Made by a program: the position numbers and the translations under genes | Notes under the pieces: model-generated | Told to the model about the DNA's origin: nothing | The model's database searches: none | The model's input: only the letters and a program-made list of their open reading frames with translations | Shown here: positions 7,306 through 36,820 of the stretch, piece after piece | How positions within the stretch are numbered: the stretch's first letter is position 1 | How the letters are laid out: each line of letters starts with the position of its first letter | Assembly: GCA_018816345.1 (NCBI GenBank) | Contig: JAHIWG010000089.1 | Coordinates: forward strand, 1 to 52,553 | Origin: Spirochaetota bacterium | Lineage (GTDB): Bacteria; Spirochaetota; Spirochaetia; Treponematales; UBA12059 | Reading direction: 5' to 3' | Length of the DNA: 52,553 nucleotides

Positions 7306-8259
7306 CTAGCGCTTTCCCTGGTCGTATATCTCGCCGGCCGCCTTGGGACCGACGGTCTTGCCGGCGAACACGACGAGCGCGACTATGGTCAGGACGTACG
7401 GCAGCATGTAGAACATCTCCTGCGGCAGGGCCGCTAGGAAGGTGATGTCCTTGGCGTAGTACGAGAGGATCTGGGCGAAGCCGAAGAACAGCCCGGCGCC
7501 GAGCACGCCCCATGGATTCCATTTTCCGAATACGAGCGACGCGAGCGCTATGAACCCGGCGCCGTGGATAGAGGTGACCGTATACTGGATATCCTGGGTA
7601 AGCACCATCGTCGCGCCGGCTAATCCGGCCAGGGCTCCCGATATGATCACTCCCGCGTAGCGCATGGCGTAGACGTTTATGCCCATGGAGGCGGACGCCT
7701 GCGGATGCTCGCCGCACGAGCGGAGGCGCAACCCGAAGGGCGTCTTCCAGACCACGAACCAGGTAAGCACGACGAGGGCCATGGCCACGTAGAAGGTGGG
7801 ATAAATTTCCCTGAAGAGGATGGGCCCTATGACCGGTATCTTCTCGAGGAGGGGCACCGTCATCTTCCTGATACCGGAACTGAAGGCCCGGGTACGCTGC
7901 TGGTTGAAGAGGATCTGGCAGAGGTACACCGTCAGGCCGCCGGCTAGGATGTTGAGGGCGGTACCGGAAATGACCTGGTCGGCCTTCAGGTTGATGCTCG
8001 CGAAGGCGTGCAGGAGCGAGAAGAGCATACCCGCGGCGACGCCCGAGAGGAGGCCGAGCCACGGCGCCAGCGGCGTCACAGGCTCGAGCACGACGGTAAC
8101 CGAGGCTCCGGCGAAGGCCCCGACCATCATGATGCCCTCGAGCGCGATATTTGTTACGCCGGAGCGTTCGGTAAAGAGACCGCCGAGCGCCGCCATGATG
8201 AGGGGCGCGGCGAACATCAGCGCTATCGGGAACATCTCTAGGATCAAGCCGATGCTCAT
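7306..8259 (-). CDS. BMP-type ABC transporter permease 2 (nucleoside-like)
   Basis: A 317-residue polytopic inner-membrane permease of the branched family used by BMP nucleoside importers and ribose-type systems. Typical motifs are seen: ALGGLFTERSGVTNIALEGIMMVGAFAG near the N-terminus, GEHPQASASMGINVYAMRYAGVIISGALAGLAGA in the middle and GAGFIALASLVFGKWNPWGVLGAGLFFG. It pairs with the permease encoded upstream (4-bp ATGA overlap) to form the channel. With the ATPase and the BMP lipoproteins it would import nucleosides, as in Treponema pnrABCDE and Bacillus nupNOPQ; riboflavin importers of the same family (RfuABCD) are the main alternative. It is the last gene of its operon. Confidence 0.9.
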   Translation of the reverse strand: MSIGLILEMFPIALMFAAPLIMAALGGLFTERSGVTNIALEGIMMVGAFAGASVTVVLEPVTPLAPWLGLLSGVAAGMLFSLLHAFASINLKADQVISGTALNILAGGLTVYLCQILFNQQRTRAFSSGIRKMTVPLLEKIPVIGPILFREIYPTFYVAMALVVLTWFVVWKTPFGLRLRSCGEHPQASASMGINVYAMRYAGVIISGALAGLAGATMVLTQDIQYTVTSIHGAGFIALASLVFGKWNPWGVLGAGLFFGFAQILSYYAKDITFLAALPQEMFYMLPYVLTIVALVVFAGKTVGPKAAGEIYDQGKR

Positions 8260-9392
8260 ACGCCGGCCTCCGCGCCGTCTTCCGCGGCCGCCAGGGCCGC
8301 CTTGCCAGCCCTCTTGCCCTTGACGAGGTCGAGGATGCGCTCGATTCCTAGCTTCATCGCTACGAACATGACTATCGAGGCCTGGATTATGCCGCCTATC
8401 TCGCGCGGGATGCCCGCGGATTGCATCAGCGGCCCGGCCGACTTGAGCACCCCGAAGAGGAGTCCCGCTAGCAGTATGCCGGGGGCGTGGTTCATGCCTA
8501 CGAGCGCGACCGCTATGCCGTCGAAGCCGTAGCCCTCCGCCGCGGGTAGCGCACGGCCGAAGCTGAAGGTGCCCGTCGTGATTATGGCGCCTGCGAGGCC
8601 CGCGAAGGCCCCGGCGATGACCATGGACAGGACGATATTGCGGTTGACCTTCATGCCCGCGTACTTGGCGGCGTCCTTGTTGAAGCCGACCGCCCTCAGG
8701 CTGAAGCCGAAGGGCGTCTTCTCCAGTATGAACCAGAAGGCCAGGACGGCGAGTATGACCGGCACGAAGCCCCAGTTGAGGCGGGAGCCGTTGGTGAAGC
8801 TAGCCAGCCAAGGATCCTTGAGCAGGGCGGAGGCCGGGAACTCGGCGGTCTTTACCCTATCGACCGAGCCGAACACGTTGAGGATGGTCCAGTTATTGAG
8901 GTGGAGCGCCGTATAGTTGAGCATGATCGTGACGACCACCTCGTGGACGTTGAAGCGGGCCTTGAGGTAGCCGGGTATGGCGCCCCACGCGGCGCCCGCG
9001 CCCATGCCCGAAAGGAGGATCAGCGGCACGTGCACGAAGCCGGGGGCCTTGACGGTCAGCGCCACGGCGGTCGCCGCGAGGGAACCCATCATCAGCTGGC
9101 CCTCGGCCCCGATGTTGAACAGCCCCGTGCGGAAGGCGAAGCCGACGCATAATCCGGTCAGGATGATGGGCATGGCCTGGATCACGAGCTCGCCAATATG
9201 CCGCGGGTTGAAGCCGCCGCGGCCGATATTGATGCCGGTGATCCCCTGGATGATCGCGTTGAACATCAGGAGCGGGTTCTTGCCCGTGATGGCGACGACT
9301 ATCGAGCCGAGGACGAAGCCCAGGGCTACCGCGACGAGCGGGATAAGCACCTTGCGTCCCTTGCCGTCCTTGTCTTTCTTAGCCATGGTCAT
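8256..9392 (-). CDS. BMP-type ABC transporter permease 1 (nucleoside-like)
   Basis: A 378-residue polytopic permease. The sequence GELVIQAMPIILTGLCVGFAFRTGLFNIGAEGQLMMGSLAA is characteristic of the first permease in NupP/YufP-type importers. It continues with FNVHEVVVTIMLNYTALHLNNW, a substrate-channel signature, and GFNKDAAKYAGMKVNRNIVLSMVIAGAFAGLAGA, the likely ATPase contact. The start ATG overlaps the ATPase stop as ATGA, showing translational coupling, and its own stop overlaps the next permease in the same way. A second ATG lies six bases downstream. The C-terminal tail is alanine-rich and poorly conserved. Confidence 0.9.
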   Translation of the reverse strand: MTMAKKDKDGKGRKVLIPLVAVALGFVLGSIVVAITGKNPLLMFNAIIQGITGINIGRGGFNPRHIGELVIQAMPIILTGLCVGFAFRTGLFNIGAEGQLMMGSLAATAVALTVKAPGFVHVPLILLSGMGAGAAWGAIPGYLKARFNVHEVVVTIMLNYTALHLNNWTILNVFGSVDRVKTAEFPASALLKDPWLASFTNGSRLNWGFVPVILAVLAFWFILEKTPFGFSLRAVGFNKDAAKYAGMKVNRNIVLSMVIAGAFAGLAGAIITTGTFSFGRALPAAEGYGFDGIAVALVGMNHAPGILLAGLLFGVLKSAGPLMQSAGIPREIGGIIQASIVMFVAMKLGIERILDLVKGKRAGKAALAAAEDGAEAGV

Positions 9393-10909
9393 ACGGCCTT
9401 CCTGATCGAGCCCGACATCATGAGCCCGAGCTCGTTCTCGTCGGTCTCCTTGGAGTCGACGATGCCTACGATCTCGCCGCCGTAGATGACGGCGATGCGG
9501 TCGGAGACGTCCATGATCTCGTCGAGCTCGAGCGAGACGAGCAGGATGGCCTTGCCCTTGTCGCGCTCCGCGACGAGACGCTTGTGGATATACTCGATGG
9601 CCCCGACGTCGAGGCCCCGGGTCGGCTGCGCTACGATGAAGGCTTCGGGGGAGCGGTCTATCTCGCGCGCGAGGATGGCCTTCTGCTGGTTGCCGCCCGA
9701 CATCGAGCGGGCTAGCGTCGCGGGCCCCTTGCCCGCCCTCACGTCGAATTCCTTGATCAGGCGCTCGGAGTTCTTGCGGATGGCAGCGAAGTCGAGGACT
9801 CCGTATTGCGCGAACGGCGGCCTGCCGTAGCTATGGATAACCATGTTCTCGTCGAGCCTGAAATCCAGCACGAGCCCGTGGCGATGCCTATCCTCGGGGA
9901 TGTGGCCGAGGCCCTTGTCGAGGCGCTGGCGCACCGGCAGGTGGGTGACGTCGCTACCGTTTATGAGCACCGAGCCGGATTCTATCTTCGAGAGGCCGGT
10001 AAGGGCGTGGATGAGCTCCGCCTGGCCGTTTCCGTCGATGCCGCAAAGCCCGAGTATCTCGCCGCGCTTGACCTGTAGGGAGAGGTTCTTAACCGCCATC
10101 AGGTTCTTGCTATTCCTGACGCAGAGGTCGCTTATCTCGAGCACGACGTCGCCCGGCGAGCACGGCCCCTTGTCGACCGTAAAGTTGACCTCCCGGCCGA
10201 CCATCATCTCCGCCATCCGGGCCTCGCTCGCGTCCTTGACCGGCACGGTGCCGATGAGCTTGCCGCGGCGCAAGACGGTGCAGGTATCCGCGACTTCCTT
10301 TATCTCCTTGAGCTTGTGCGTGATGAGGACGATAGTCTTGCCCTCCTCGACGAGGCGCCTCATGATGCCCATCAGCTCGTGGATCTCCTGGGGCGTCAGC
10401 ACGGCCGTCGGCTCGTCGAAGATGAGAATCTCCGCGTCGCGGTAGAGCATCTTGAGTATCTCCACGCGCTGCTGCATGCCGACGGAGATCTCCTCGATCC
10501 TGGCGTTAGGGTCGACGTCGAGCCCGTAGAGCTTCGAAAGCTCGGCGACCTTGGCCGCCGCGCGCTTGACGTCGATCATGAGCCCCGCTCGGGGCTCGAG
10601 CCCGAGTATTATGTTCTCGGTCACCGTGAAGTTGTGCACGAGCTTGAAATGCTGGTGCACCATGCCTATGCCCAGCTCGTTGGCTACGTTAGGATCGTTG
10701 ATGCGGACGCTCTCGCCCCTGATCCTGATGCTACCGCCGTCGGGCGAATACAGCCCGAAGAGAATGCTCATAAGCGTCGACTTGCCGGCGCCGTTCTCGC
10801 CGAGGAGGGCGTGAATGGAGCCCTTTTCGACCTGGAGCGTCACGTCGTCGTTTGCGCGGATGCCCGGGAAGTCCTTGACGATATTGAGCATCTCGATGAT
10901 GTACGCCAT
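9389..10909 (-). CDS. double-cassette ABC transporter ATPase (nucleoside-like)
   Basis: A 506-residue cytosolic ATPase with two fused nucleotide-binding domains. The first has Walker A GENGAGKS, signature ISVGMQQRVE and Walker B LIFDEPTAVL. The second has a degenerate Walker A (CGIDGNGQAE), signature MSGGNQQKA and AQPTRGLD in place of Walker B. This pattern of one full and one weak site is normal for sugar and nucleoside importers of the RbsA/NupO type. It powers the two permeases encoded directly downstream, with which it overlaps by 4 bp. A terminator at 11041-11080 separates it from the BMP lipoprotein gene, so the ATPase and permeases are probably expressed by read-through or from a weak promoter near 10990-11005. 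Confidence 0.92.
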   Translation of the reverse strand: MAYIIEMLNIVKDFPGIRANDDVTLQVEKGSIHALLGENGAGKSTLMSILFGLYSPDGGSIRIRGESVRINDPNVANELGIGMVHQHFKLVHNFTVTENIILGLEPRAGLMIDVKRAAAKVAELSKLYGLDVDPNARIEEISVGMQQRVEILKMLYRDAEILIFDEPTAVLTPQEIHELMGIMRRLVEEGKTIVLITHKLKEIKEVADTCTVLRRGKLIGTVPVKDASEARMAEMMVGREVNFTVDKGPCSPGDVVLEISDLCVRNSKNLMAVKNLSLQVKRGEILGLCGIDGNGQAELIHALTGLSKIESGSVLINGSDVTHLPVRQRLDKGLGHIPEDRHRHGLVLDFRLDENMVIHSYGRPPFAQYGVLDFAAIRKNSERLIKEFDVRAGKGPATLARSMSGGNQQKAILAREIDRSPEAFIVAQPTRGLDVGAIEYIHKRLVAERDKGKAILLVSLELDEIMDVSDRIAVIYGGEIVGIVDSKETDENELGLMMSGSIRKAV

Positions 10910-11036
10910 CGCGTGCCCCCATGCGTTTGGGAAGGGATTCGACCGTATCGGACGGAACCGCCGTACGGAAGCCGTTAAGGATACAATATAAACGCCGTTT
11001 CTGGAAGCGGAAAAGCGCTCCCGCCGGCGGGGATCA

Positions 11037-11080
11037 CGGAAAAAAGGGGCCGCCCAGGTTTTATCCTGGGCGGCCCCTTA
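11037..11080 (-). terminator. rho-independent terminator after the BMP lipoprotein gene
   Basis: A 15-bp perfect stem (11044-11058 with 11065-11079) has a six-base loop and, on the minus strand, a six-base T-run. It lies between the binding-protein gene and the ATPase gene, an arrangement that commonly makes binding protein in excess of the membrane complex. Confidence 0.9.
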
Positions 11081-11099
11081 GGGTACGGAGGGAGGCGAA

Positions 11100-12146
11100 T
11101 TACTTCGCGGGAACCTCGGAGACGGTCAGGGCGCCGGAGGAGATCTTGTCGGCGTATTCCTTGACCTTGGCGACGATGTCGGCCGAGAGGTTGGGGTTGT
11201 TGGCGGGGATGCCGACGCCGGCGTTCTTCAGGGAGAACACGAGCACCTGGCCGCCGGGGAACTGGCCGGCCTTGGCGAGCTTGGCTACCTCGTAGGCGGC
11301 CACGTCGACGCGCTTCATCATGGAGGTGAGCACGGCGGACTTGTCGCCGTACAGGCCGTCGGTGTACTGGTCCTTATCGACGCCTATGCCCCAGCGTACG
11401 TCGCCCTTCTCGGAGCGCTCCTTGGCTTCCTTGATCATGCCGTTGCCGGTGCCGCCGGCCGCGTGGAAGATGATGTAGGCGCCGGCGTTGAACTGCTTCT
11501 GCGCGATGGCCTGTCCCTTGTCCGGGGCGCCGAAGTCTCCGGCGTAGTCTACGAGGATCTTGGCCTCGGGGTAGACGGCCTTGACGCCCTGCTCGAAACC
11601 GGCCTGGAAGCGCTCGATGAGCGGGAACTGCATGCCGCCGATGAATCCGACGACCTTCTTGCCGTCGGCCTTGGCCTTGAGGCCGGCCGCGACGCCGACG
11701 AGGTACGAACCCTCGTGCTCGGAGAAGACGGCGCTGACCACGTTGGGCTTCTGGACCACGGTGTCTATCACGAGGAGCTTCTGGGTCGGGTACTTGTCGG
11801 CGACCTCGCCCATGGCCTTCTCGAAGAGGAAGCCGGGCGCGACGATCAGGTCGAGCTTCTCGTCGGCGAAGGTGCTGAGGTTCGGCACGTAGTCGGCCTC
11901 GGCGGCGGACTGGAGGTACTTGTAGTCGGTGCCCTTGGCGAGCTTGTTCTCATCGCCGAAGCGGACGATGCCTTCCCAGGTCCCCTGGTTGAAGGACTTA
12001 TCGTCAATACCGCCGAGGTCGGTCACGAGGCCTACCTTGAAGGCGGGAGCGGCAGGGGTCGCGGGGGCGGCGGCTTCCTTCTTTGCGCAGCTGGTGAAAG
12101 CGAGCGCGACGACGAGAAGCGTTGCGAAGAATGTTCGATACTTCAT
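11100..12146 (-). CDS. BMP-family substrate-binding lipoprotein (TmpC/PnrA-like)
   Basis: A 348-residue lipoprotein. Residues 1-20 form a signal peptide with lipobox FTSC and lipid-modified C20. The mature domain has the BMP pattern: VGLVTDLGGIDDKSFNQGTWEGI, LIVAPGFLFEKAMGEVADKYP, EHEGSYLVGVAAGLKA and VVGFIGGMQFPLIERFQAGFEQG. The aspartate in GGIDDKSFN and the aromatic FNQ region usually hold the nucleoside. In Treponema pallidum the homologue PnrA binds purine nucleosides; here that substrate is inferred. The ATG at 12146 is chosen because AAAGGAGA lies just upstream and a signal peptide begins there. A small hairpin lies just before the ribosome binding site. Confidence 0.92.
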   Translation of the reverse strand: MKYRTFFATLLVVALAFTSCAKKEAAAPATPAAPAFKVGLVTDLGGIDDKSFNQGTWEGIVRFGDENKLAKGTDYKYLQSAAEADYVPNLSTFADEKLDLIVAPGFLFEKAMGEVADKYPTQKLLVIDTVVQKPNVVSAVFSEHEGSYLVGVAAGLKAKADGKKVVGFIGGMQFPLIERFQAGFEQGVKAVYPEAKILVDYAGDFGAPDKGQAIAQKQFNAGAYIIFHAAGGTGNGMIKEAKERSEKGDVRWGIGVDKDQYTDGLYGDKSAVLTSMMKRVDVAAYEVAKLAKAGQFPGGQVLVFSLKNAGVGIPANNPNLSADIVAKVKEYADKISSGALTVSEVPAK

Positions 12147-12192
12147 ACATCTCTCCTTTACTTTTCCGCTCGTTGCGGAAATGCGGAATTCG

Positions 12193-12221
12193 ATAGTACC
12201 CCTATACTGCGTTCGATGCAA
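12193..12221 (-). promoter_or_regulatory. putative promoter of the TmpC-like gene
   Basis: On the minus strand TTGCAT (12221-12216), a 17-bp spacer and TACTAT (12198-12193) lie between the two BMP genes, about 47 bp before the downstream start codon. Each box matches four of six consensus bases, so the call is moderate. Confidence 0.42.
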
Positions 12222-12229
12222 CTAGAGAT

Positions 12230-13396
12230 TTAGCGAAGGCCCGCTATGAAATCGGCGAGGGCCTGCTCGTCCGCGGGAACGGCTATCTCCCCGGCGACGA
12301 TCCGGCGCGACAGGTCGGCCAGGACCGTCACGGCCTCGGGGGGCAGCCCAGGGGCGACGTATCCGACGCCACCGTCCGACAGCCCGAAATTCCTATAGCC
12401 GCCGGCTATAGGCGCTCCTGACAGGAGCTCCCTGCCGAGCGAGTATACGGCCCGGTCCACGCGCTTCACCATCGAGGCGACGATCACCTTGGACAGCAGG
12501 GCGTCGGACTGCTGCCCCGAGGATGCCAGGATCGCCGCCTGGTCGGAATCCGAGCCTATGGCCTTGGTCCCGAGGCGGGTCGCCGCCTCGAACACGCCGC
12601 GGCCGGACGCGCCGGCGGCCTGGAATATGACGGCCGACTTGGCCTGGTAGAGGACCGAGGCTAGTTCCCCGGCCCGCTTCGGGTCGGCGTAGCCGCTCGC
12701 GTCGCGGGACACGAAGGCGAACACGACGCGGCCGGTCGCGCGCAGCGTCGGGTTCACGTAGGCGGCTCCGGCGATGTAGCCGGAGAGGTAACGCCTCGAC
12801 AGGGGCGCGTCCATGCCGCCGACGAAGCCTATCCTGGCGTCCGGCCCCACCGCCCGCGCTATCATGCCCGCGTAGGCCCCGACGAGGAACGATCCTTCCT
12901 GCTCGGCGAATTCGACGCAGGTTATGGACGAGCTGGAATCCAGGTCCGGGACCGCCCCGTCTATCAGCACGAAATGCGTAGAGGGGAAATCCCTGGAGAC
13001 AGAGCCTATGGAATCGGCGAAGAGGAAGCCTACGGCGATGACGAGGTCCCGGCCTTCCTCGGCGAGGCTCCGGAGCAGCTGCTCCCTGTCGGCCCCGCCC
13101 AGCTTAGACTCGAGGACCCGTATATCGAGCATGTAGCCGTAATCGGCGTCGGGGTCGTCGCGGATGAAGCCGCCGACGTCGCGGGCGAGCAGCGATAGCC
13201 CGTCGTAGGCGGAGCGGTTGAACGACGAGTCGTACCTATCCCCGACGTTGAAGACGAGCCCGATGGACGGGATCCTCACCGGGCCCGCCCGGCGCTCCTC
13301 GGGCTCCTTAGGAGCCCCGGCGCCGCACGACGAGAGCGAGGCTAGGCATAGGGCCGCGCAGGCGAGCGCGGCGGCCATCGGACGGATATGCATCAT
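12230..13396 (-). CDS. second BMP-family lipoprotein
   Basis: A 388-residue lipoprotein with a signal peptide and lipobox SSC at C24. It carries the same domain as its downstream neighbour (IGLVFNVGDRYDSSFNRSAYDGL, LVIAVGFLFADSIGSVSRDFP, EQEGSFLVGAYAGMIA, IGFVGGMDAPLSRRYLSGYIAG), but the sequences have diverged strongly. The ligand motif GGIDDKSFN of the neighbour is changed to VGDRYDSSFN, so the two may bind different nucleosides or related ligands. Both probably feed the same ATPase and permeases. GGAGG lies five bases before the first of two adjacent ATG codons, and a TATACT -10 box is at 13413-13418. It follows deoC in the same direction. Confidence 0.88.
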   Translation of the reverse strand: MMHIRPMAAALACAALCLASLSSCGAGAPKEPEERRAGPVRIPSIGLVFNVGDRYDSSFNRSAYDGLSLLARDVGGFIRDDPDADYGYMLDIRVLESKLGGADREQLLRSLAEEGRDLVIAVGFLFADSIGSVSRDFPSTHFVLIDGAVPDLDSSSSITCVEFAEQEGSFLVGAYAGMIARAVGPDARIGFVGGMDAPLSRRYLSGYIAGAAYVNPTLRATGRVVFAFVSRDASGYADPKRAGELASVLYQAKSAVIFQAAGASGRGVFEAATRLGTKAIGSDSDQAAILASSGQQSDALLSKVIVASMVKRVDRAVYSLGRELLSGAPIAGGYRNFGLSDGGVGYVAPGLPPEAVTVLADLSRRIVAGEIAVPADEQALADFIAGLR

Positions 13397-27043: not shown

Positions 27044-28738
27044 CTACCGGCCGGCCGGCCTCAGGCTGTCGTAGGGCATGCCGGCGAGCAGCTCGCATAC
27101 GCGCCTCGCTTCGGCGCTGGCGTCGGCCTTGAGGCCGCCCGCGTTCAGCCTGTCTATCTCGGCCTTCATCGTCCTGTGGTTCGCGGGTCCTAGCCGCATG
27201 CGCAGCGACGAGATTATGCCTAGAGCGAGCAGGGCGAGAGGCAGGAAGGCGAACAGCGCGCGGATCTTCCCCGCCGTGCCGTCGGGCTGGACAACGGAGA
27301 CGGTCGTCCTGGAAGCGCCCGAGCCCTTATAGCCCGCGGCGTCGAGGGCCCGACGGACGGCGCGCCTGTCGTCGTCGGTCAGGCGGGGGTCGAGGACCAG
27401 CTGGCCGCTGCCGTCGTCCGCGTAGGCCCGCGCTAGCGCGGAGGCGTCGGCGGGCGCCGCGGCCGCGACGCGCGGGACTATGACGCCGGACATGTCGTCG
27501 GCGCTCAGGCGAGCAGGCACGGGGCCGAGGTAGCCTATGGCGGCCAGTATGACGCCTAGCACGGGAAGCACCAGGGCGCCCTGGATAAGCTTGCGTATCA
27601 GGGTCATGGCCCCCGCGTAGGTGCCGGCTCGCTTCTTTCCCGTTATCAGCTCGTCGACGTCGACGACGAACGGCAGGAGCTGGAAGGGCACGAGCACCGC
27701 GGCGGACTGGCCGAGGCCCGCCAGGACGCAATTGAGGACCAAGAATACGACGGGCGTCTCGGGGGTATGCAGGTACATCGCGGCCATGGCGACCAGCATG
27801 ATCGACAGGCCTATGCGGTACGCGAAGGCGTGGCCCTTCCTGTTGGCGATCGCTATGTAGACGGGCAGGGCCGCGATCTGCGGCACGAGTATGGCGCCCA
27901 TGGCGACCATGAGGAAGCCTGGCCTCCCCAGGTAATCGGCCAGGTAGAACTTGAGCCAGCCCATGAGGACGTCCATGGTAGCGTAGGCGAAGATATACAT
28001 CGCTATATGCACGCGGAAGCTGCCGTTCCTGAAAATCGTGGCGAAGTTGGAGACGAAGCCCTCCGAACGGCCGGACGCGGCCTTCGGGGCTCGCTCGGGG
28101 ACGGGGCCTTCCCAGGTACCCAGGTACACGACTATCCAAGGGGCCGCGAACAGGGCGCCGAAGACGAGGCCCATCGCGAGGTGCCCCGCCCTGGGATCGG
28201 GGAAGGCGTTGATGAGGACCTGCGGCACGGTGCCCGAGATAAGGGCCGCGAGCATCGAGAAGAACATGCGGAAGCCGGTTAGCTTGTTTCGGTCCTTGAA
28301 TTCCGACGCCATCTCCGCGGATAGCGCCCCGTAGGGCACAAGGACCATGGTGCTGACCGTATAGAAGAACACGTACGCGAGGAAGTAGTACGCGAACAGG
28401 CCGAGGTCGGTAGAGGCGCGGACGGGCACCCATATGAGCGCCACCGAGGCGAAGATAGGCGCGATGCCGACTAGGAACCATACGCGACGGCGACCGAAGC
28501 GGCTCTTCGTACGATCGGAGATGAATCCCATCAGCGGGTCGGAGACAGCGTCCCAAATCTTGCCGAGCCCGGGGATGAGGCCCGCGAGTATTGGGCTCAT
28601 GCCGACGACGGCAACGAGGTAGTACATCGCGAAGGTACTTACGAGGAGGAAGGCTCCTCCGCCGTAGAGGTCGCCCAATCCGTAGGCGACGCAGTTGCGC
28701 GTCCTCAGGGCCCGTTCCCCTCTCGTTATTCCATCCAT
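27044..28738 (-). CDS. GPH-family sugar:cation symporter with an inserted loop
   Basis: A 564-residue, 12-helix transporter of the glycoside-pentoside-hexuronide family (MelB type). Signatures: YGLGDLYGGGAF in helix 1, AVSDPLMGFISDRTKSRFGRRR after helix 2 and VPYGALSAEMASEFKDRNKLTGFR between helices 4 and 5. It ends in the usual HRTMKAEIDRLN tail. Members are usually about 450-480 residues; here an extra segment of about 85 residues (405-490), rich in Asp and Ala, lies between the last two helices, predicted outside. YihO and YihP beside E. coli yihQ are GPH proteins too, so import of sulfoquinovose or its glyceryl glycoside is the best guess. It lies 31 bp after the sulfoquinovosidase gene. 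Confidence 0.9.
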   Translation of the reverse strand: MDGITRGERALRTRNCVAYGLGDLYGGGAFLLVSTFAMYYLVAVVGMSPILAGLIPGLGKIWDAVSDPLMGFISDRTKSRFGRRRVWFLVGIAPIFASVALIWVPVRASTDLGLFAYYFLAYVFFYTVSTMVLVPYGALSAEMASEFKDRNKLTGFRMFFSMLAALISGTVPQVLINAFPDPRAGHLAMGLVFGALFAAPWIVVYLGTWEGPVPERAPKAASGRSEGFVSNFATIFRNGSFRVHIAMYIFAYATMDVLMGWLKFYLADYLGRPGFLMVAMGAILVPQIAALPVYIAIANRKGHAFAYRIGLSIMLVAMAAMYLHTPETPVVFLVLNCVLAGLGQSAAVLVPFQLLPFVVDVDELITGKKRAGTYAGAMTLIRKLIQGALVLPVLGVILAAIGYLGPVPARLSADDMSGVIVPRVAAAAPADASALARAYADDGSGQLVLDPRLTDDDRRAVRRALDAAGYKGSGASRTTVSVVQPDGTAGKIRALFAFLPLALLALGIISSLRMRLGPANHRTMKAEIDRLNAGGLKADASAEARRVCELLAGMPYDSLRPAGR

Positions 28739-28769
28739 GCCGGGATTCCTTTCAGTATGTATGCTCGCG

Positions 28770-30809
28770 CTATAGATCGGCCGCTCGCGGGAGCCCCGAG
28801 AACAGCGTAGCCCAGTCCGAGCCTGAGCGCCAGAAAACCGGCGGCTCCCCCATCGGAGCGCTCAAGGCGTAGCGGCCTCCGCCGTATCGCGTCCCCGTCC
28901 ATAGGTGCACCCACTCCTCGCCTCCCGGGAGGTAGACGGGGCGCGTCACGGCCCCTTCCTCCATGACCGGGGCCACGAGCAGGTCGCGGCCGAGCAGGTA
29001 CTGGTCCTTGATGCGGAACGAGGCGGGGTCAGACTCGTAGTGGAAGAAGAGCGGCCGCATGGCGGCGACTCCCTCGCGGGCGTTCTGGGCCAGGACCGCC
29101 TTGCGGTACGGCTTCAGGGCGACGAAGAGCCGGCCCAGCCTGGCGAGGGCGTCCAGCGTCGCGTCGTCCGAGTCGAACTGCCAGTTATCGCCGGGCCTAT
29201 TGCCCTCGTGGCTGCGCATCATCGGCGTGAAGGCGGAGAACTCGGCCCAACGCAACAGCAATTCCTTCGTGCGCCGCATGCCGAAGAGCGTCGTGTAGCC
29301 GCCTATGTCGCTATGGTGCACGCCGTGGCCGCAGACCGCAAGGGACAAGGCCGCGGTGAGGGCCGACGGGAGCCCGTCGTCCTCGGACCAGTCGACGTTC
29401 TGGTCGCCGGCCCACATGTTGGGGCACCAGCGCTGGCTGCCCGCGGCTCCGGCGCGCATGAAGTAGACTATCTCGTCGGCCTCGCCCGCCTCGGCGACCG
29501 CCTCGTGGCAGAGCCGGGCCCAGGCCGCGGGCCACGGGTTGTGGGCCAGCATCGCGGGCGTCCCGTCGAAGAGGACCGCGTCGGTAGGCAGGTACTCGCC
29601 GAAGTCGGCCATCCACCCGGAGAGCCCGAAGTCGACGAGGTTCTTCCTTATTACCGACTTGTACCACTCGAAGGCCGCGGGGTTGGTAAGATCGACTATG
29701 CCCGCATCGAACTCGCCGAAATCGACGCGATAGTCGTCGCCTTTACGGTCCTTGGCCAGGAATCCGCGGGAGGCCGCTTCCTCGAAGAGCGGCTTCCCCG
29801 CCGCGACGTACGGGTTGGCGTAACCCAGGAACCGAACGCCCTCGTCGCGCCACCGGCGCATCGCCGCGGGGAGTCCCGGGTAGCGCTCCTCGTCCCATTC
29901 CCAGTTCCAGCGCAGCCTCTGGCCGAAGCCGGTCATATTGATGCCTTCCCAATCCTGGGCCCAGATGCCGGCGACGGGCACGCCCCGGGCCTTCGCCCGC
30001 CTGAGCCTACGCTCGCAGACGGCCGTGCCTCCCTGCATGCCCAGGACTATCCCGTCGTGGGTCCAGTCGGGGGGCTCGGGCTGACGGCCCAGCAAGGCGG
30101 AGACGCCCTTGGCCAGGTCGAGCATGGATCCCCCGACGCCGAAGAAGATACGCTTCGGCAGGGCCCAGAACTCCAGCTCGTGGAAGTCAGTATCGCGGAA
30201 GTCGAGGGCCGCGTACGCGGGGCAGTCGGCGTGCATCCAGTAACGCCGGCTCGAGGCGAAGGTGGCCTGGGGGAAGAAAGTCCACCAGTAGTCGCCCCCG
30301 GCCTTGTCGGCCACGTCGGCCTCCCAGGTGACGCGGGTGCGCTTATTGCGGCCGACGCCCTGCTCGCTCGTCCACAGCGGGAAGCGCCTGCCCCGGAGGT
30401 CCAGGTGGGAGAACTGCTCCCCTCCTCCGAAGACGGACTCGCCGGGCTCGGCCGGCAGGCGGAACCAAAACCGATTGGGCTCGGCCCCGCGGGGACCGTC
30501 GCCGGCGGCCGGGGAGAGCGTCGGCTCTACGGATAGCCGGCCGTCCTCCTCCCCGAGGGCGATATCGAGACGGTACCGGCCGCCGAAGAGGCTTATACGC
30601 TGGCGCGGGCCGGATTCGTCTATCTCGAACTCGGCGAGGCCGACGCGCTCCGAGAGCCTGTCCTGGATATCGAAGTTGCCGCGGTACATCTCGACGAGCT
30701 CCGAGCCGCGGCCGACGTAGGCCATGGGCGCGCCGGGCGCGTGCCCGAGGAGAGGCGTCCCGTTATACAGGACGGAGAACCCGTCGCTTCGCCGCTCTAT
30801 AGTGATCAT
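28770..30809 (-). CDS. yihQ: GH31 sulfoquinovosidase
   Basis: A 679-residue glycoside hydrolase with a GH31 barrel very like E. coli YihQ, including the stretches WMADFGEYLPTD, WAGDQNVDWS and HHSDIGGYTTLF. The catalytic nucleophile is D402 and the acid/base D469. The five residues that hold the sulfonate in YihQ (Q262, Q288, R301, W304, Y508) correspond to Q259, Q285, R298, W301 and Y505, so the full QQRWY motif is present. It should cleave alpha-sulfoquinovosides such as sulfoquinovosyl glycerol from plant and algal sulfolipid. No signal peptide is seen, so it acts in the cytosol after uptake. It sits between the ABC importer genes (7-bp gap) and a GPH symporter gene. Confidence 0.93.
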   Translation of the reverse strand: MITIERRSDGFSVLYNGTPLLGHAPGAPMAYVGRGSELVEMYRGNFDIQDRLSERVGLAEFEIDESGPRQRISLFGGRYRLDIALGEEDGRLSVEPTLSPAAGDGPRGAEPNRFWFRLPAEPGESVFGGGEQFSHLDLRGRRFPLWTSEQGVGRNKRTRVTWEADVADKAGGDYWWTFFPQATFASSRRYWMHADCPAYAALDFRDTDFHELEFWALPKRIFFGVGGSMLDLAKGVSALLGRQPEPPDWTHDGIVLGMQGGTAVCERRLRRAKARGVPVAGIWAQDWEGINMTGFGQRLRWNWEWDEERYPGLPAAMRRWRDEGVRFLGYANPYVAAGKPLFEEAASRGFLAKDRKGDDYRVDFGEFDAGIVDLTNPAAFEWYKSVIRKNLVDFGLSGWMADFGEYLPTDAVLFDGTPAMLAHNPWPAAWARLCHEAVAEAGEADEIVYFMRAGAAGSQRWCPNMWAGDQNVDWSEDDGLPSALTAALSLAVCGHGVHHSDIGGYTTLFGMRRTKELLLRWAEFSAFTPMMRSHEGNRPGDNWQFDSDDATLDALARLGRLFVALKPYRKAVLAQNAREGVAAMRPLFFHYESDPASFRIKDQYLLGRDLLVAPVMEEGAVTRPVYLPGGEEWVHLWTGTRYGGGRYALSAPMGEPPVFWRSGSDWATLFSGLPRAADL

Positions 30810-30816
30810 CGGGGAC

Positions 30817-31650
30817 CTATCCTTTTACGCCGCCGGCGGCCACGCCGCGGATGAGGAATTTCTGCATCGCCAGGGTGAAGACGAACACGGGCGTCAGCAT
30901 GACGGTGCTGGCGGCGCACATCTGGCCCCAGGTAAGGGTATCCCCGCCTATGAGGCTGGAGATGGCTACCGGCGCCGTCCTCGCCTTGACTCCGGTGAGT
31001 ATCAGGGCGTAGAGGAACTCGTTCCAGCTGTTGATGAAGGCGAACACGGCCGCGACCACGAGGCCCGGCGCCACGAGCGGCAGGAACACCAGGCGGAATA
31101 GCGCCCAGCGCGTGCATCCGTCCACCATGGCCGCCTCCTCGTAGCTCTTGTCGACGGCGGTGAAGAAGGGAATGAGCATCCAGATCACGTACGGCACGTT
31201 GAAGCTGGAATGGGCCAGCGTTATGCCGAAGACCGTATCGCGCAGCCCCACCTGCCTGAACATCATGTAGAGGGCGACGACGAGCGACATCTGGGGCAGC
31301 ATGCGGAACACGAGGAAGCTGTACGCGAGGGCGTTGCGCCCCCGGAACTTGAAGCGCGATATTCCGTAGGCCGCCATGGCCCCTACCCCGACGGAGAGGG
31401 CGGTGGAAAAGAGGCCCACGACTATGGAATTGCCCATCGCCCTCATCATCTGGCTATTCTTGAAGACGAGCGCGTAGCTGTCCAGGGTCAGCTGGCTGAG
31501 GGCGAATTTCTGCCCGGAGAGGATGACGATATCGCGGCGGAATCCGTTGAGCAGCGTTATGAAGATGGGGTACAGCTCTATGAGCAATAGGAGCGCGGCG
31601 AAGAGCATCACCGCCCCGGTGATGGTCTTGCGCCTATTCGCCATCGTCAT
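30817..31650 (-). CDS. CUT1 sugar ABC transporter permease (MalG-like)
   Basis: A 277-residue inner-membrane permease with six predicted helices. The EAA loop that touches the ATPase reads YEEAAMVDGCTRWALFRLVFLPL, followed by FINSWNEFLYALIL, both typical of MalG/UgpE-type proteins. The start at 31650 forms an ATGA overlap with the stop of the upstream permease, with AAGGGGG in front. No ATPase gene lies in this cluster; a shared MsmK/UgpC-type ATPase encoded elsewhere is likely. With its neighbours it would import a sugar, inferred to be a sulfoquinovoside. Confidence 0.92.
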   Translation of the reverse strand: MTMANRRKTITGAVMLFAALLLLIELYPIFITLLNGFRRDIVILSGQKFALSQLTLDSYALVFKNSQMMRAMGNSIVVGLFSTALSVGVGAMAAYGISRFKFRGRNALAYSFLVFRMLPQMSLVVALYMMFRQVGLRDTVFGITLAHSSFNVPYVIWMLIPFFTAVDKSYEEAAMVDGCTRWALFRLVFLPLVAPGLVVAAVFAFINSWNEFLYALILTGVKARTAPVAISSLIGGDTLTWGQMCAASTVMLTPVFVFTLAMQKFLIRGVAAGGVKG

Positions 31651-32594
31651 CGGCTGCCCCCTTGGTCCTCGAGCCTCTCGAGGCTCATGTTCTTGCGTAC
31701 GAGGGTCACGGCGAACGCGATGGATATGACCAGGAGGAATATGGCCATGGCGCTCGACATGCCGACCTTCATATACCCGAAGGCCTGCCTGTGGGTGTAG
31801 AGGCTGAATAGGGTCGTCGCCATGCCGGGGCCGCCCTCGGTCATCACGTAGACCTCGCTGAAGATGCGCAGGGCGTCGATGATGCGTAACAGGAGCGCGG
31901 TGAGGATGGTCGGGTACATCAGGGGCAGTATCACCCTCAAGAGCCGCTTCCAGAAGGTCGCGCCGTCGATCTCCGCCGCCTCGAGGACGTCGGTAGGGAT
32001 GCCCGCCAGGCCGGCGTACAGGAGCATGAACACGAAGGGCCACATGCGCCAGATATCCTGGACGATGACGGCCGCGTAGGCGAAGGTCGGGTGCCCGAGC
32101 CAGGTGATCTCGGGGGCGCCGAGGGCCAGCAGGAAGTTGTTGAGCGCCCCGTAGCGGGGCTGGAGCATGAAGCGCCAGGTCATGCCCGAGACGACCGGGA
32201 GGAAGAAAACCGGCAGCAGTATCAAGGCGCGGACCACCTTGCCTCCCTGGAACTCCCGGTTGAGGAGCAGGGCCGCCGCGAGGCCCAGGAGGATCTCCAG
32301 CGGGATAGCGATGAAGATGAAGCCGAGCTGCAGCTTGAGGCTGTTCCAGAACTCCAGGTCCCGTACCAGGGCCTTGTAGTTGTCGACACCGACGAATACC
32401 CGCGCGCCGCCTCCGGCCGACAGGGGCCAGTCGAACATCGACACCACGAACGAGAAGACGATCGGGAAGATGAGTACCGCGAATACGATGAGGAGCGCCG
32501 GCAGCAAGAAAGGCACGGGGGACCCGCGGCCCCCCGTACCTCTCGCGGCGACTCTCCCGGCCGGGCTAGTAGCCGGCCTTCTTGAGGATGTCAT
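31647..32594 (-). CDS. CUT1 sugar ABC transporter permease (MalF-like)
   Basis: A 315-residue permease. After a glycine- and arginine-rich cytosolic head, helix 1 reads FLLPALLIVFAVLIFPIVFSFVVSMFDW. The EAA loop is VLEAAEIDGATFWKRLLRVILPLMYP, standard for UgpA/MalF-type proteins. Its ATG at 32594 lies 29 bases inside the end of the binding-protein gene, with AAGGA seven bases upstream, so the two are tightly coupled. The pair of permeases needs an ATPase from outside the cluster. Confidence 0.92.
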   Translation of the reverse strand: MTSSRRPATSPAGRVAARGTGGRGSPVPFLLPALLIVFAVLIFPIVFSFVVSMFDWPLSAGGGARVFVGVDNYKALVRDLEFWNSLKLQLGFIFIAIPLEILLGLAAALLLNREFQGGKVVRALILLPVFFLPVVSGMTWRFMLQPRYGALNNFLLALGAPEITWLGHPTFAYAAVIVQDIWRMWPFVFMLLYAGLAGIPTDVLEAAEIDGATFWKRLLRVILPLMYPTILTALLLRIIDALRIFSEVYVMTEGGPGMATTLFSLYTHRQAFGYMKVGMSSAMAIFLLVISIAFAVTLVRKNMSLERLEDQGGSR

Positions 32595-33894
32595 TGGTTT
32601 CCTTGACTATCATCTGGATCGCGTCCTTGGCGGGCATGGCTCCGGTGATGCCCTGTACCCAGTATTTCTTCACGACGTCCTGGACCTGGCCTATCTCCTT
32701 GAAGCGCGGCCTGGAGGCGGCGACCTTCATGGACTCGGCGAGCGCGGCCAGCTGGGGCTTGCTGGAGGCGTAGGCCGGGTCGGTCAGGGACTCGGTGCGG
32801 GCGGGGATGGTGTTAGCCTGCACGAGCCTGTCGGCTATGGCCTTGCTGGACCACCAGTAGACGAACTCGGCGGCGGCTTCCTTGTTCTTGGAGGCCTTGG
32901 GGATCGCGATGGCCCAGGCGCCGGTGACGGCGGCCTGTCCGCGCGGGCCGGCGGGCGGGGCGGAATAGGCGATCTTGCCGGCTACCAGCGACTTCGCGGG
33001 ATCCTCGTAGGCGGCTATCTGGGCCGGCCAGATGAACATGGAGAAGACGCCCTTGGGGTCCGCGGCGAAGGCGGCCTGGCGCTCCACGTGGGCCATGGTC
33101 TCGGCGCCCTTGGGCGATATGGCCATCAGCTTCTTGTAGAATTCCATGCCCTCGACGGCTTTCCCCTCGTCCAGGACGACCTTGAAGGTGCCACCGGTAT
33201 AGTCGATGAACTTGGTGCCGAAGGACTCCCACATGAACACGGCCTCGGACAGGACGCCCGCGGGCCCGCCGTTGAAGGGGCCGAAGCCGGCGGCGATGTC
33301 GTTCTCGTAGAAGAACGTGCCCATCTCCAGGAGCTCCTTGAAGGTCTTGGGCACGCCGAGGTCGTAGCCGTGCTTGGCCTTGAATTGGGAGCGGTAGGTC
33401 GGGTTCTCGATGAGGTCCTTGCGGGTCATCCAGACGTAGAGGTTGCCGTTGATGGGCACGCCTAGCTGGACGCCGTTCCAGGTGCCGATGCTATACATCT
33501 TCGGCGTGATGGAGGCGGGATCGGTCTTGGGGTATACCGTCCCCTTGGCCCACTGGTCGAAGGGAAGGAGCAGCGACGCGAACACGGGGACGTTACCCTC
33601 GTCGATGCCGACGACGTCGTAATCGGTAGCGGTGTCGGTCACCGACACGGCCGTCTTCGTCAATACCTGCGGAGGCTGGAGCATCTCGATATTGACCGTG
33701 ATATTGGTGGCCTTGGTGAATTCGGGGAGCATCTCCGCGAGCGCCTTGGGATAGGGGTCGTCCCATAGAAGCACGTTGATCGACCGAGGCTCCATCGCCT
33801 TCGCGACTTCCTTCTTCGGTGCGCACGATAGGCCGACGACCGAGATAGCGATCGCCAAGGAGACGAGCGCGAATAGCCGGATCCTTGTTTTCAT
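32566..33894 (-). CDS. sugar ABC transporter substrate-binding lipoprotein
   Basis: A 442-residue lipoprotein of the UgpB/MalE-like group (bacterial solute-binding family 1). The signal peptide ends in lipobox GLSC, with C24 lipidated. The mature protein has INVLLWDDPYPKALAEMLPEFTKATNITVNIEM, YDVVGIDEGNVPVFASLLLPF, LQLGVPINGNLYVWMTRKDLI-like hinge segments, and a C-terminal AKDAIQMIVKETNDILKKAG tail. It delivers the sugar to the two permeases. The link to sulfoquinovosides comes only from the adjacent GH31 gene; SmoF of Agrobacterium is a comparable binding protein. It is the first gene of the operon. Confidence 0.92.
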   Translation of the reverse strand: MKTRIRLFALVSLAIAISVVGLSCAPKKEVAKAMEPRSINVLLWDDPYPKALAEMLPEFTKATNITVNIEMLQPPQVLTKTAVSVTDTATDYDVVGIDEGNVPVFASLLLPFDQWAKGTVYPKTDPASITPKMYSIGTWNGVQLGVPINGNLYVWMTRKDLIENPTYRSQFKAKHGYDLGVPKTFKELLEMGTFFYENDIAAGFGPFNGGPAGVLSEAVFMWESFGTKFIDYTGGTFKVVLDEGKAVEGMEFYKKLMAISPKGAETMAHVERQAAFAADPKGVFSMFIWPAQIAAYEDPAKSLVAGKIAYSAPPAGPRGQAAVTGAWAIAIPKASKNKEAAAEFVYWWSSKAIADRLVQANTIPARTESLTDPAYASSKPQLAALAESMKVAASRPRFKEIGQVQDVVKKYWVQGITGAMPAKDAIQMIVKETNDILKKAGY

Positions 33895-34015
33895 CCTAAT
33901 CTGTCCTTTCCGGGAAAAGGGGAATACGGAAGCCTAAGGCTGTCCGTTCTCGCGCGGCCCCCGATCAGTTTCACCGCCGATCTCCGATGGGCCTCTATTT
34001 AGTTAGTTAGTGAAA

Positions 34016-34043
34016 ATAATACACGAGATATAAAGCCTGTCAA
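34016..34043 (-). promoter_or_regulatory. strong promoter of the sulfoquinovoside operon
   Basis: On the minus strand a perfect TTGACA (34043-34038), a 16-bp spacer and TATTAT (34021-34016). Directly downstream lies a CTAA-CTAA-CTAA run (34000-34011 area), a possible operator. The leader to the ATG at 33894 is about 115 bases. The best sigma-70 promoter in the window. Confidence 0.8.
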
Positions 34044-35408: not shown

Positions 35409-36125
35409 CTACTCCTTCAGCCACAGCGTGCCGGGGCGCTTGAACGAGCGCGCCTTGGCTACCAGGGCGAACGCGACGGCGCAGTACGCGAGGTACCCGA
35501 CCGACACGAGCACCATCGTCCAGAACGGCCCTAGCGTCCCCTGGGCGCCCGCCTGCGCCGGCAGGTTTATTGCCAGTATGAAAGGTATGGCCAGGCCGAA
35601 GGTCAAGCCCGCCGAGAGCATATAATCGCTCGAGACCTTCGTCTTGAATTCAGGGTCGACGATGCGCAGGAGCGCCAGGCCCGTTGACAGCGTACCGGTG
35701 GAGACGCCGAATAGCATGATCATCCGTTCGTAGCGATGGTCCTTGAATATCCTCGAGCACATCCACGGTACCGTGAGCGCCACCGCGATGCCGCCGACCG
35801 TGGAGATGGCGAGGAGCGGCACCCAGTACTTCCCCACGAAGACCAGGGAGATGGCCGCGAGGGCGCCCGTCACCATGAAGTCTATCGCCATGCCCGATAT
35901 GCGCGAAAGGCCGTCGTCGTCCATGATCCGGCCTATCTTGAGCTTGTCGATGACGGATCGCACCACCATCGCGGTCAGGGCCGAGAAAATGAAGTTCATG
36001 CCCCATAGGTTATAGGCGAGGTCGCGGCCTACCTTGCCGGCGAGTCCGAGGAGGGCGCCGATGCCGGTCAGCAGCAGGAAGGAGAGGATGTACGTGAACG
36101 CGACGACCGCGGCATGGAAGCTCAT
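35409..36125 (-). CDS. GltS-like sodium/glutamate symporter, C-terminal half (other frame)
   Basis: A 238-residue hydrophobic protein that matches the second half of the sodium/glutamate symporter (ESS) family, with segments FMVTGALAAISLVFVGKYWVPLL and MIMLFGVSTGTLSTGLALLRIVDP, the latter being the second conserved loop. It lies in another frame from the N-terminal half at 36164-36820. The frames would join if one more C were present in the C5 run on the minus strand (36183-36187), giving an unbroken PPDAERPVGLRNTTDLEAIDP linker. No good ribosome binding site precedes the ATG at 36125, so separate translation is doubtful. It could be a pseudogene, a sequencing error or a -1 frameshift product. 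Confidence 0.7.
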   Translation of the reverse strand: MSFHAAVVAFTYILSFLLLTGIGALLGLAGKVGRDLAYNLWGMNFIFSALTAMVVRSVIDKLKIGRIMDDDGLSRISGMAIDFMVTGALAAISLVFVGKYWVPLLAISTVGGIAVALTVPWMCSRIFKDHRYERMIMLFGVSTGTLSTGLALLRIVDPEFKTKVSSDYMLSAGLTFGLAIPFILAINLPAQAGAQGTLGPFWTMVLVSVGYLAYCAVAFALVAKARSFKRPGTLWLKE

Positions 36126-36163
36126 CGGATCGATGGCCTCGAGGTCGGTCGTATTCCTCAGGC

Positions 36164-36820
36164 CTACGGGGCGCTCCGCGTCGGGGGCAGGACCCCGGTC
36201 CGGAGGCCCTTGTCCATCGATACCTTGAGGGCCGGGAGGAAGCCCTTGCGGACGCCGTAGTTGACGAGGGCCACGCCGACGATACAGGCCCACAGGTAGC
36301 CGAGCGCGGCCATGGCCAAGCCTACGGACCCCGCGCCCTCGAAGCCCATGCCCTCCCAGCTCTTGCCTATCGCGTAAGCCTGGCCGGGCCCCATCGCGAA
36401 GCCTAGCGGTAGAGTCAGCCCGAAGGCGGGGCTGAGACCGGGCAGGACGGTACTGAAGAAGACCCATGTCAGAATCAGGCCGAGGAACGCCTGGATAGCG
36501 TACTGTGACATGATGACCGTCGACATCGCCCACACCGAGCCGTCCTTGCCGTGCTTGGCTCCCGCCGGCTTGGACCTGAGCGTCATGGCTATGAAGGAGA
36601 GGCTCAGGAGATGGTATACGAGGTCCCCGAGCCTGTTCTGCGTATAGCCCAGGGCGGGCATGAGATAGTTATATACCGGGAGCAGTATGAAACCGGCGGT
36701 CAGGGAGTTTGGGACCATGAAGCGTTGCAGGAACCGGAGCTTAGTCCGTAAGAACGTCGCCAACAGCAGGGCTGACGATATGACGCCCGCGTCTATCGCT
36801 ATCTTCCAAGAAAAATCCAT
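36164..36820 (-). CDS. GltS-like sodium/glutamate symporter, N-terminal half
   Basis: A 218-residue membrane protein with five or six helices. It resembles the first half of GltS: MDFSWKIAIDAGVISSALLLATFLRTKL, FLQRFMVPNSLTAGFILLP, and LTLPLGFAMGPGQAYAIGKSWEG, the first conserved substrate loop. The frame ends early with TGVLPPTRSAP, just after a C5 run, while the missing second half continues in another frame (35409-36125). GAAAGGT precedes the ATG at 36820, and an extended -10 box TGC-TAGACT is at 36892-36884. If intact, the full protein would import glutamate with Na+. Confidence 0.72.
   Translation of the reverse strand: MDFSWKIAIDAGVISSALLLATFLRTKLRFLQRFMVPNSLTAGFILLPVYNYLMPALGYTQNRLGDLVYHLLSLSFIAMTLRSKPAGAKHGKDGSVWAMSTVIMSQYAIQAFLGLILTWVFFSTVLPGLSPAFGLTLPLGFAMGPGQAYAIGKSWEGMGFEGAGSVGLAMAALGYLWACIVGVALVNYGVRKGFLPALKVSMDKGLRTGVLPPTRSAP

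Follow-up and report, generated by a model that had tools for sequence, protein, structure and literature searches.

The question raised by this locus is how a single operon for sulfoquinovose (SQ) glycosides comes to carry two unrelated putative importers and no enzyme for breaking down the sugar that it releases. The window (the whole stretch of 52,553 nucleotides analyzed here) is contig C74 of the metagenome-assembled genome (MAG) G000, an assembly of 3.80 Mb in 175 contigs with 96% completeness and 2.9% contamination, which its nearest named relatives place in the Spirochaetota. At 27044-33894 it encodes the solute-binding protein (SBP) and two permeases of a CUT1 ATP-binding cassette (ABC) importer, a GH31 sulfoquinovosidase (SQase) and a transporter of the GPH family. 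This operon very probably constitutes the uptake and hydrolysis arm of the oxidative sulfo-transketolase (sulfo-TK) pathway for SQ in an uncultured spirochaete, a reading for which gene content, active-site residues, conserved synteny and a shared operator can be taken directly from the sequence.

A sulfoquinovosidase operon and its pathway genes

Neighboring genes of the five either overlap, as happens twice, or stand 7 and 31 bp apart, and they therefore likely form one transcription unit. Domain searches with Pfam and NCBIfam matched SBP_bac_1 (6e-22), BPD_transp_1 twice, Glyco_hydro_31 and MFS_2 (1.6e-63). Open reading frames (ORFs), minus strand and domains thus bear out the five-gene operon described in an earlier note on this DNA, as well as its CUT1 importer without an ATPase of its own, since two permeases and an SBP are present and the operon has no ATPase gene. 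The note's statement that the window holds no sulfoglycolysis gene likewise agrees with the window ORFs and family hits, among which there was none.

The GH31 protein was matched over its full length by NF007746, the NCBIfam equivalog model for YihQ (912.4 bits against a cut-off of 553), and by the YihQ structure 5aed of the PDB across residues 6-674 (E=3e-248); its closest solved structures are YihQ and kin, named sulfoquinovosidase. Alignment with YihQ (offset 3) confirmed the residues that the earlier note had listed, namely Q259, Q285, R298, W301 and Y505 together with D402 and D469, whose sulfonate-binding and catalytic roles we take from work on YihQ. The same QQRWY-DD pattern is common to 96 of the 99 sequences in the first GH31 alignment, and the set is therefore a clade character rather than a chance resemblance. 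By every sequence test available, the protein is a sulfoquinovosidase of the YihQ type. No signal peptide was seen in it on inspection by eye, from which we infer that glycosides must be imported prior to hydrolysis. In the related genome G001, the SQase frame (L143:6248-8329) contains one in-frame stop, reflecting either a pseudogene or a MAG error.

The survey also brought out a second SQase-like GH31 clade, 41-46% identical, in which the sulfonate-binding Arg is replaced by Gln (QQQWY or QQQWF). Its members include L083:17779-19800 on contig C170 of this genome and proteins of L008, L173, L175, L176 and L165, and it is kept inside or beside spirochaetal sulfo-TK clusters. This clade may act on another sulfosugar glycoside.

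The genes for the released sugar are found on other contigs of the same MAG. Contig C167 carries, in a row, SqwG, SqwH, SqwI, SqwD, SqwK, SqwL and a DASS anion transporter. SqwK and SqwL match succinate-CoA ligase subunits, SqwI is RpiB/LacAB-like, and the best match of SqwD is NF047625 (acylating sulfoacetaldehyde dehydrogenase), with a score of 533 bits that falls short of the 600-bit cut-off. On C170, a protein has as its only NCBIfam match NF048012 (sulfoquinovose isomerase SftI/SqvD; 185 bits against a cut-off of 700), and the second GH31 gene follows directly after it. The called start of this sqvD gene (L083:16439-17797) covers the operator described below; the true start is likely the ATG after AGGAGG, giving MKYTVRLG. 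As judged by these matches, the genome encodes the full oxidative sulfo-TK set (SqvD, SqwGH, SqwI, SqwD and SqwKL). Of the two outlets that the earlier note had considered for the released sugar, genes elsewhere in the genome thus stood, and cross-feeding was rejected as an account of the absent downstream genes because the pathway that makes it unnecessary lies in the same genome. In passages of PMC12890257 and PMC11659671, Acholeplasma is given as the source of the oxidative variant, Spirochaetes as a group in which it has been noted, and Chu et al. 2023 as the reference for SqvD-SqwGH-SqwI-SqwD-SqwKL clusters.

A split transketolase pair on C159 (L139:9358-11203), ~69% identical to a sulfo-TK SqwG, was set aside as a pathway component on account of its neighbors (a ribose-type ABC system, Gfo/Idh oxidoreductases and a LacI regulator) and the absence of an operator; it perhaps serves another sugar acid or sulfosugar.

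A putative palindromic operator common to three loci

A promoter-like sequence, TTGACA-16-TATTAT (11/12), immediately precedes the SBP gene, with similar sites before the orthologues of relatives, and in these SBP-gene promoters a palindrome lies over or just after the -10 element. By searching the genome with the pattern WTTAYTTWCNNNNNSWAASTAAW at ≤1 mismatch, exactly three places were found in 3.8 Mb, and the reversed pattern, used as control, gave 0. The confinement of the palindrome to these three promoters suggests that the operon and the sqwG and sqvD loci form one regulon (Table 1). The operator recurs at SQ genes of Sphaerochaeta, Treponema and other Spirochaetota relatives.

Several of the relatives' clusters that have the operator also contain ROK-family regulators (PF00480). 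The best ROK match in this genome, G000:C13:667-1863, is 35% identical, and its helix-turn-helix stretch SQSEVV..SSLKAPTVFRIF nearly equals that of the cluster ROK proteins; the regulon is probably under a ROK repressor, for which this protein is the candidate. We found no ROK operator in SQ catabolism in the literature.

Table 1. Features of the operon and its control region (positions refer to the window unless a contig is named)
Feature	Length (amino acids)	Position	Strand	Basis or remark
CUT1 solute-binding protein (SBP)	442	32566-33894	minus	ORF list; SBP_bac_1; orthologues adjoin SQases and sulfo-TK genes
CUT1 permease A	315	31647-32594	minus	ORF list; BPD_transp_1
CUT1 permease B	277	30817-31650	minus	ORF list; BPD_transp_1
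GH31 sulfoquinovosidase	679	28770-30809	minus	Glyco_hydro_31; QQRWY set with D402/D469
GPH-family (MFS_2) transporter	564	27044-28738	minus	mainly spirochaetal clade, not YihO/YihP
Sigma-70-like promoter TTGACA-16-TATTAT		34016-34043	minus	similar sites at orthologous loci
Putative operator ATTATTTTC-ACTAA-CTAACTAAA		33998-34020	minus	overlaps -10; same motif before sqwG (C167) and sqvD (C170)
Operator sites in the genome		window 33998-34020; G000:C167:2051-2073; G000:C170:61443-61465		before this operon, sqwG and sqvD

Two probable importers in one operon

The ABC importer is tied to SQ by its genomic context. SBP orthologues in relatives are 56-88% identical, and an SQase adjoins the orthologues of this importer in 15 of 16 evaluable loci, the exception being G013; in G007, of the same genus, a single run holds ROK, SqvD, SqwG-H-I-D-K-L, DASS, SqvB, SBP, permease A, permease B and SQase, with ABC genes 86-93% identical to those of the window. 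Because of this adjacency and the single cluster in G007, the importer is, on the evidence of synteny in many genomes, linked to SQ. An open frame of 24,496 amino acids in G007:C17 was dismissed as an artefact produced by a run of N, and the SBP frame of G002 (L157:10063-11372) is broken by stops, owing to either a pseudogene or a MAG error. The label "lipoprotein", which the earlier note had given to the SBP, proved weak, as the putative lipoprotein cysteine is missing from orthologues. For the missing ATPase, an orphan UgpC/MsmK-type gene on C82 (499.6 bits, above the cut-off) is a putative partner; no sugar-transport genes were recognized beside it.

The frequency of the double arrangement was assessed in the 80 nearest SQase loci with flanks of up to 7 kb, where counts are minima because some loci end at contig ends. 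ABC importers alone were present in 23 loci, GPH transporters alone in 32, neither in 24, and both in 1 (L004, the G001 operon). Both types are likewise present in the Treponema cluster L168, whose ABC importer belongs to a different subfamily. The double-importer arrangement is accordingly rare but recurrent, in line with the earlier note's remark that SQ clusters generally use one type.

The GPH protein is a clear MFS_2 member (215 bits; gathering score 27) and scores below the cut-off of the narrower TIGR00792 (162.7 against 231). Its assignment to the YihO/YihP family in the earlier note was wrong, since the tree places it in a separate, mainly spirochaetal clade, parted from E. coli YihO and YihP by the starred split (100/99), and it is 24% identical to each. 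It has the Asp55/Asp59 pair of MelB and is without Asp19, Asp124 and Arg149. Near residues 410-490 this protein has an insertion of ~80 residues, and its C terminus is extended; some other clade members are long as well. Members of the clade adjoin SQases in G001, G010 (a contig fragment), G025, Treponema G031/M74 and Caloramator, and the solitary orthologue in G013 (64% identical) has the SQ operator ~90 bp upstream with 1 mismatch, in a genome that has about three unrelated one-mismatch sites. Adjacency to SQases and this G013 operator, the latter being the best independent clue, argue for a role of the GPH protein in SQ metabolism, and on balance we infer that it imports SQ or sulfoquinovosyl glycerol (SQGro), a role that we hold to be fairly probable.

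In the mechanism proposed here, substrates, the direction of GPH transport, and the identities of the ATPase and the repressor are predictions. The SBP would bind SQGro and/or SQ and deliver it to the two permeases for import, with energy from a shared ATPase of the MsmK/UgpC type whose gene stands by itself on C82, and the cation-coupled GPH transporter would provide a second route independent of the SBP. Cytoplasmic GH31 would split the alpha-glycoside to SQ, SqvD would convert SQ to sulfofructose, and SqwGH with SqwI would transfer two C2 units from it to glyceraldehyde-3-phosphate. SqwD and SqwKL would then take sulfoacetaldehyde to sulfoacetate with a gain of ATP, the DASS transporter would export the product, and one palindromic operator, probably bound by a ROK-family repressor with the C13 protein as candidate, would act at the promoters of all three loci.

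Alternative roles, known systems and significance

Several observations weigh against this interpretation. Neither its profile nor its fold brings the SBP nearer to SmoF than to binders of maltose or trehalose, which are its best sequence and fold matches: SmoF ranks 8 in the profile search (E=3.3e-16), and in the comparison of the AlphaFold model it reaches Z 36.4 against 38.0 for the best match, so that assignment to SmoF by either route was dropped as uninformative, all CUT1 binders being tied. Some of the sites that the operator pattern finds had served to derive it, as the three sites of this genome were in view when it was written. Evidence for it comes mostly from relatives, and the SBP promoters of five relatives by themselves give ATTAYTTWC-N5-GWAASTAAT, which has ≤2 mismatches to each of the other own sites (sqwG and sqvD). 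The putative mutarotase SqvB (DUF4867) had no match in this genome in a search run without a positive control, and, the assembly being a MAG, loci on separate contigs are joined by binning, kinship and the operator only. As for the GPH protein, some genomes with a ~50%-identical protein have no SQase, no GPH gene follows the SQase in G007, and in G002 an OsmC gene directly follows the SQase, with no GPH gene at the syntenic site, which in the window and in G001 it occupies between SQase and OsmC gene. Because of this variable presence, the GPH gene is accessory, not essential, to the ABC-SQase operon.

These points leave room for three other readings. The least credible is that the operon serves a neutral, maltose-like alpha-glucoside with GH31 as an ordinary alpha-glucosidase: maltose/trehalose binders lead the SBP matches and the NCBIfam GH31 model is named "alpha-glucosidase," but YihQ and kin as nearest solved structures, the full sulfonate-binding set, and the conserved linkage and operator common with sulfo-TK genes make it highly improbable. 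More specific to the GPH protein is the proposal, based on analogy with YihO/YihP, that it would export sulfoacetate or excess SQ and leave the ABC system as sole importer. The yih cluster of E. coli K-12 does hold two GPH proteins, YihO annotated as an importer and YihP as a sulfonate exporter, and here the gene is an addition to an ABC-SQase operon that is complete without it. Such a role is nevertheless unlikely given that a DASS anion transporter already ends the sqw operon and that the GPH gene of G013 is solitary and preceded by the operator, in a genome whose isethionate-type gene set comes with a TauE-type exporter of its own, so that a dedicated exporter of sulfoacetate would be unlikely in that genome. 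A role in carrying a different co-occurring sugar or glycoside, the gene being placed by chance or for the same induction conditions, would fit both the relatives without an SQase and the species-dependent presence at the syntenic site, yet recurrence beside SQases in separate lineages and the SQ operator before the solitary G013 orthologue render it quite unlikely. Import of SQ or SQGro therefore remains the role we prefer for the GPH protein. A wider and more tentative proposal, doubtful as a whole, is that the mainly spirochaetal GPH clade holds a new, YihO-independent family of SQ/SQGro symporters, the operon thereby coupling a high-affinity ABC route to a cation-coupled one, that WTTAYTTWC-N5-SWAASTAAW marks, throughout Spirochaetota, a single ROK-controlled SQ regulon made up of the operon, the sulfo-TK genes and SqvD, and that the R-to-Q GH31 clade handles a second sulfosugar glycoside.

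Most of this system is of a known kind; the novelty lies in the pairing of importers, in the occurrence within SQ operons of a GPH clade other than that of YihO, and in the operator common to the loci. Compared with oxidative sulfo-TK clusters, the same enzyme set is present, and relatives combine it with this ABC importer and SQase, while here the genes are spread over at least three loci with an extra GPH gene, and SqvB was not found. The E. coli yih cluster shares a YihQ-type SQase with GPH transporters; in contrast, it uses sulfo-EMP, has no ABC importer, and its GPH proteins belong to another clade. According to the literature, the smo cluster of Agrobacterium resembles this operon in combining CUT1-type ABC import of SQ glycosides by the SQGro-binding importer SmoEFGH with a GH31 SQase, but the SBP here is not a close relative of SmoF and the operon is without an ATPase gene; we know of no GPH protein in smo. 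Reductive sulfo-TK clusters of Sphaerochaeta and Treponema (L063 and L168) share the SQase, an ABC importer, SqvD and the same operator, L063 also having a ROK regulator and L168 a GPH protein of the same broad clade; they differ in their ABC subfamily (~30% identical permeases) and, in L063, in the isethionate branch (SqwF/TauE).

Elsewhere in the window, a sodium/glutamate-symporter-like gene at 35409-36820 appears to be divided between two frames, through a frameshift or as a two-part gene; the frame at 36164-36820 covers no more than the first half of the Pfam model. At 7306-13396 lies a nucleoside-type importer, in which two tandem PnrA/BMP-type lipoprotein genes precede those for an ABC ATPase and for two permeases of the BPD_transp_2 type.

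Few organosulfur compounds are as abundant as SQ, and the locus reveals a predicted uptake route for it in spirochaetes with the oxidative sulfo-TK pathway. The survey has also drawn attention to GH31 paralogues that form a clade of their own and have a changed sulfonate site, and two unrelated importers for what is probably one sulfosugar provide a testable case. A pathway split over several loci is still recognizable here through one operator, which makes SQ regulons searchable in MAGs with scattered genes.

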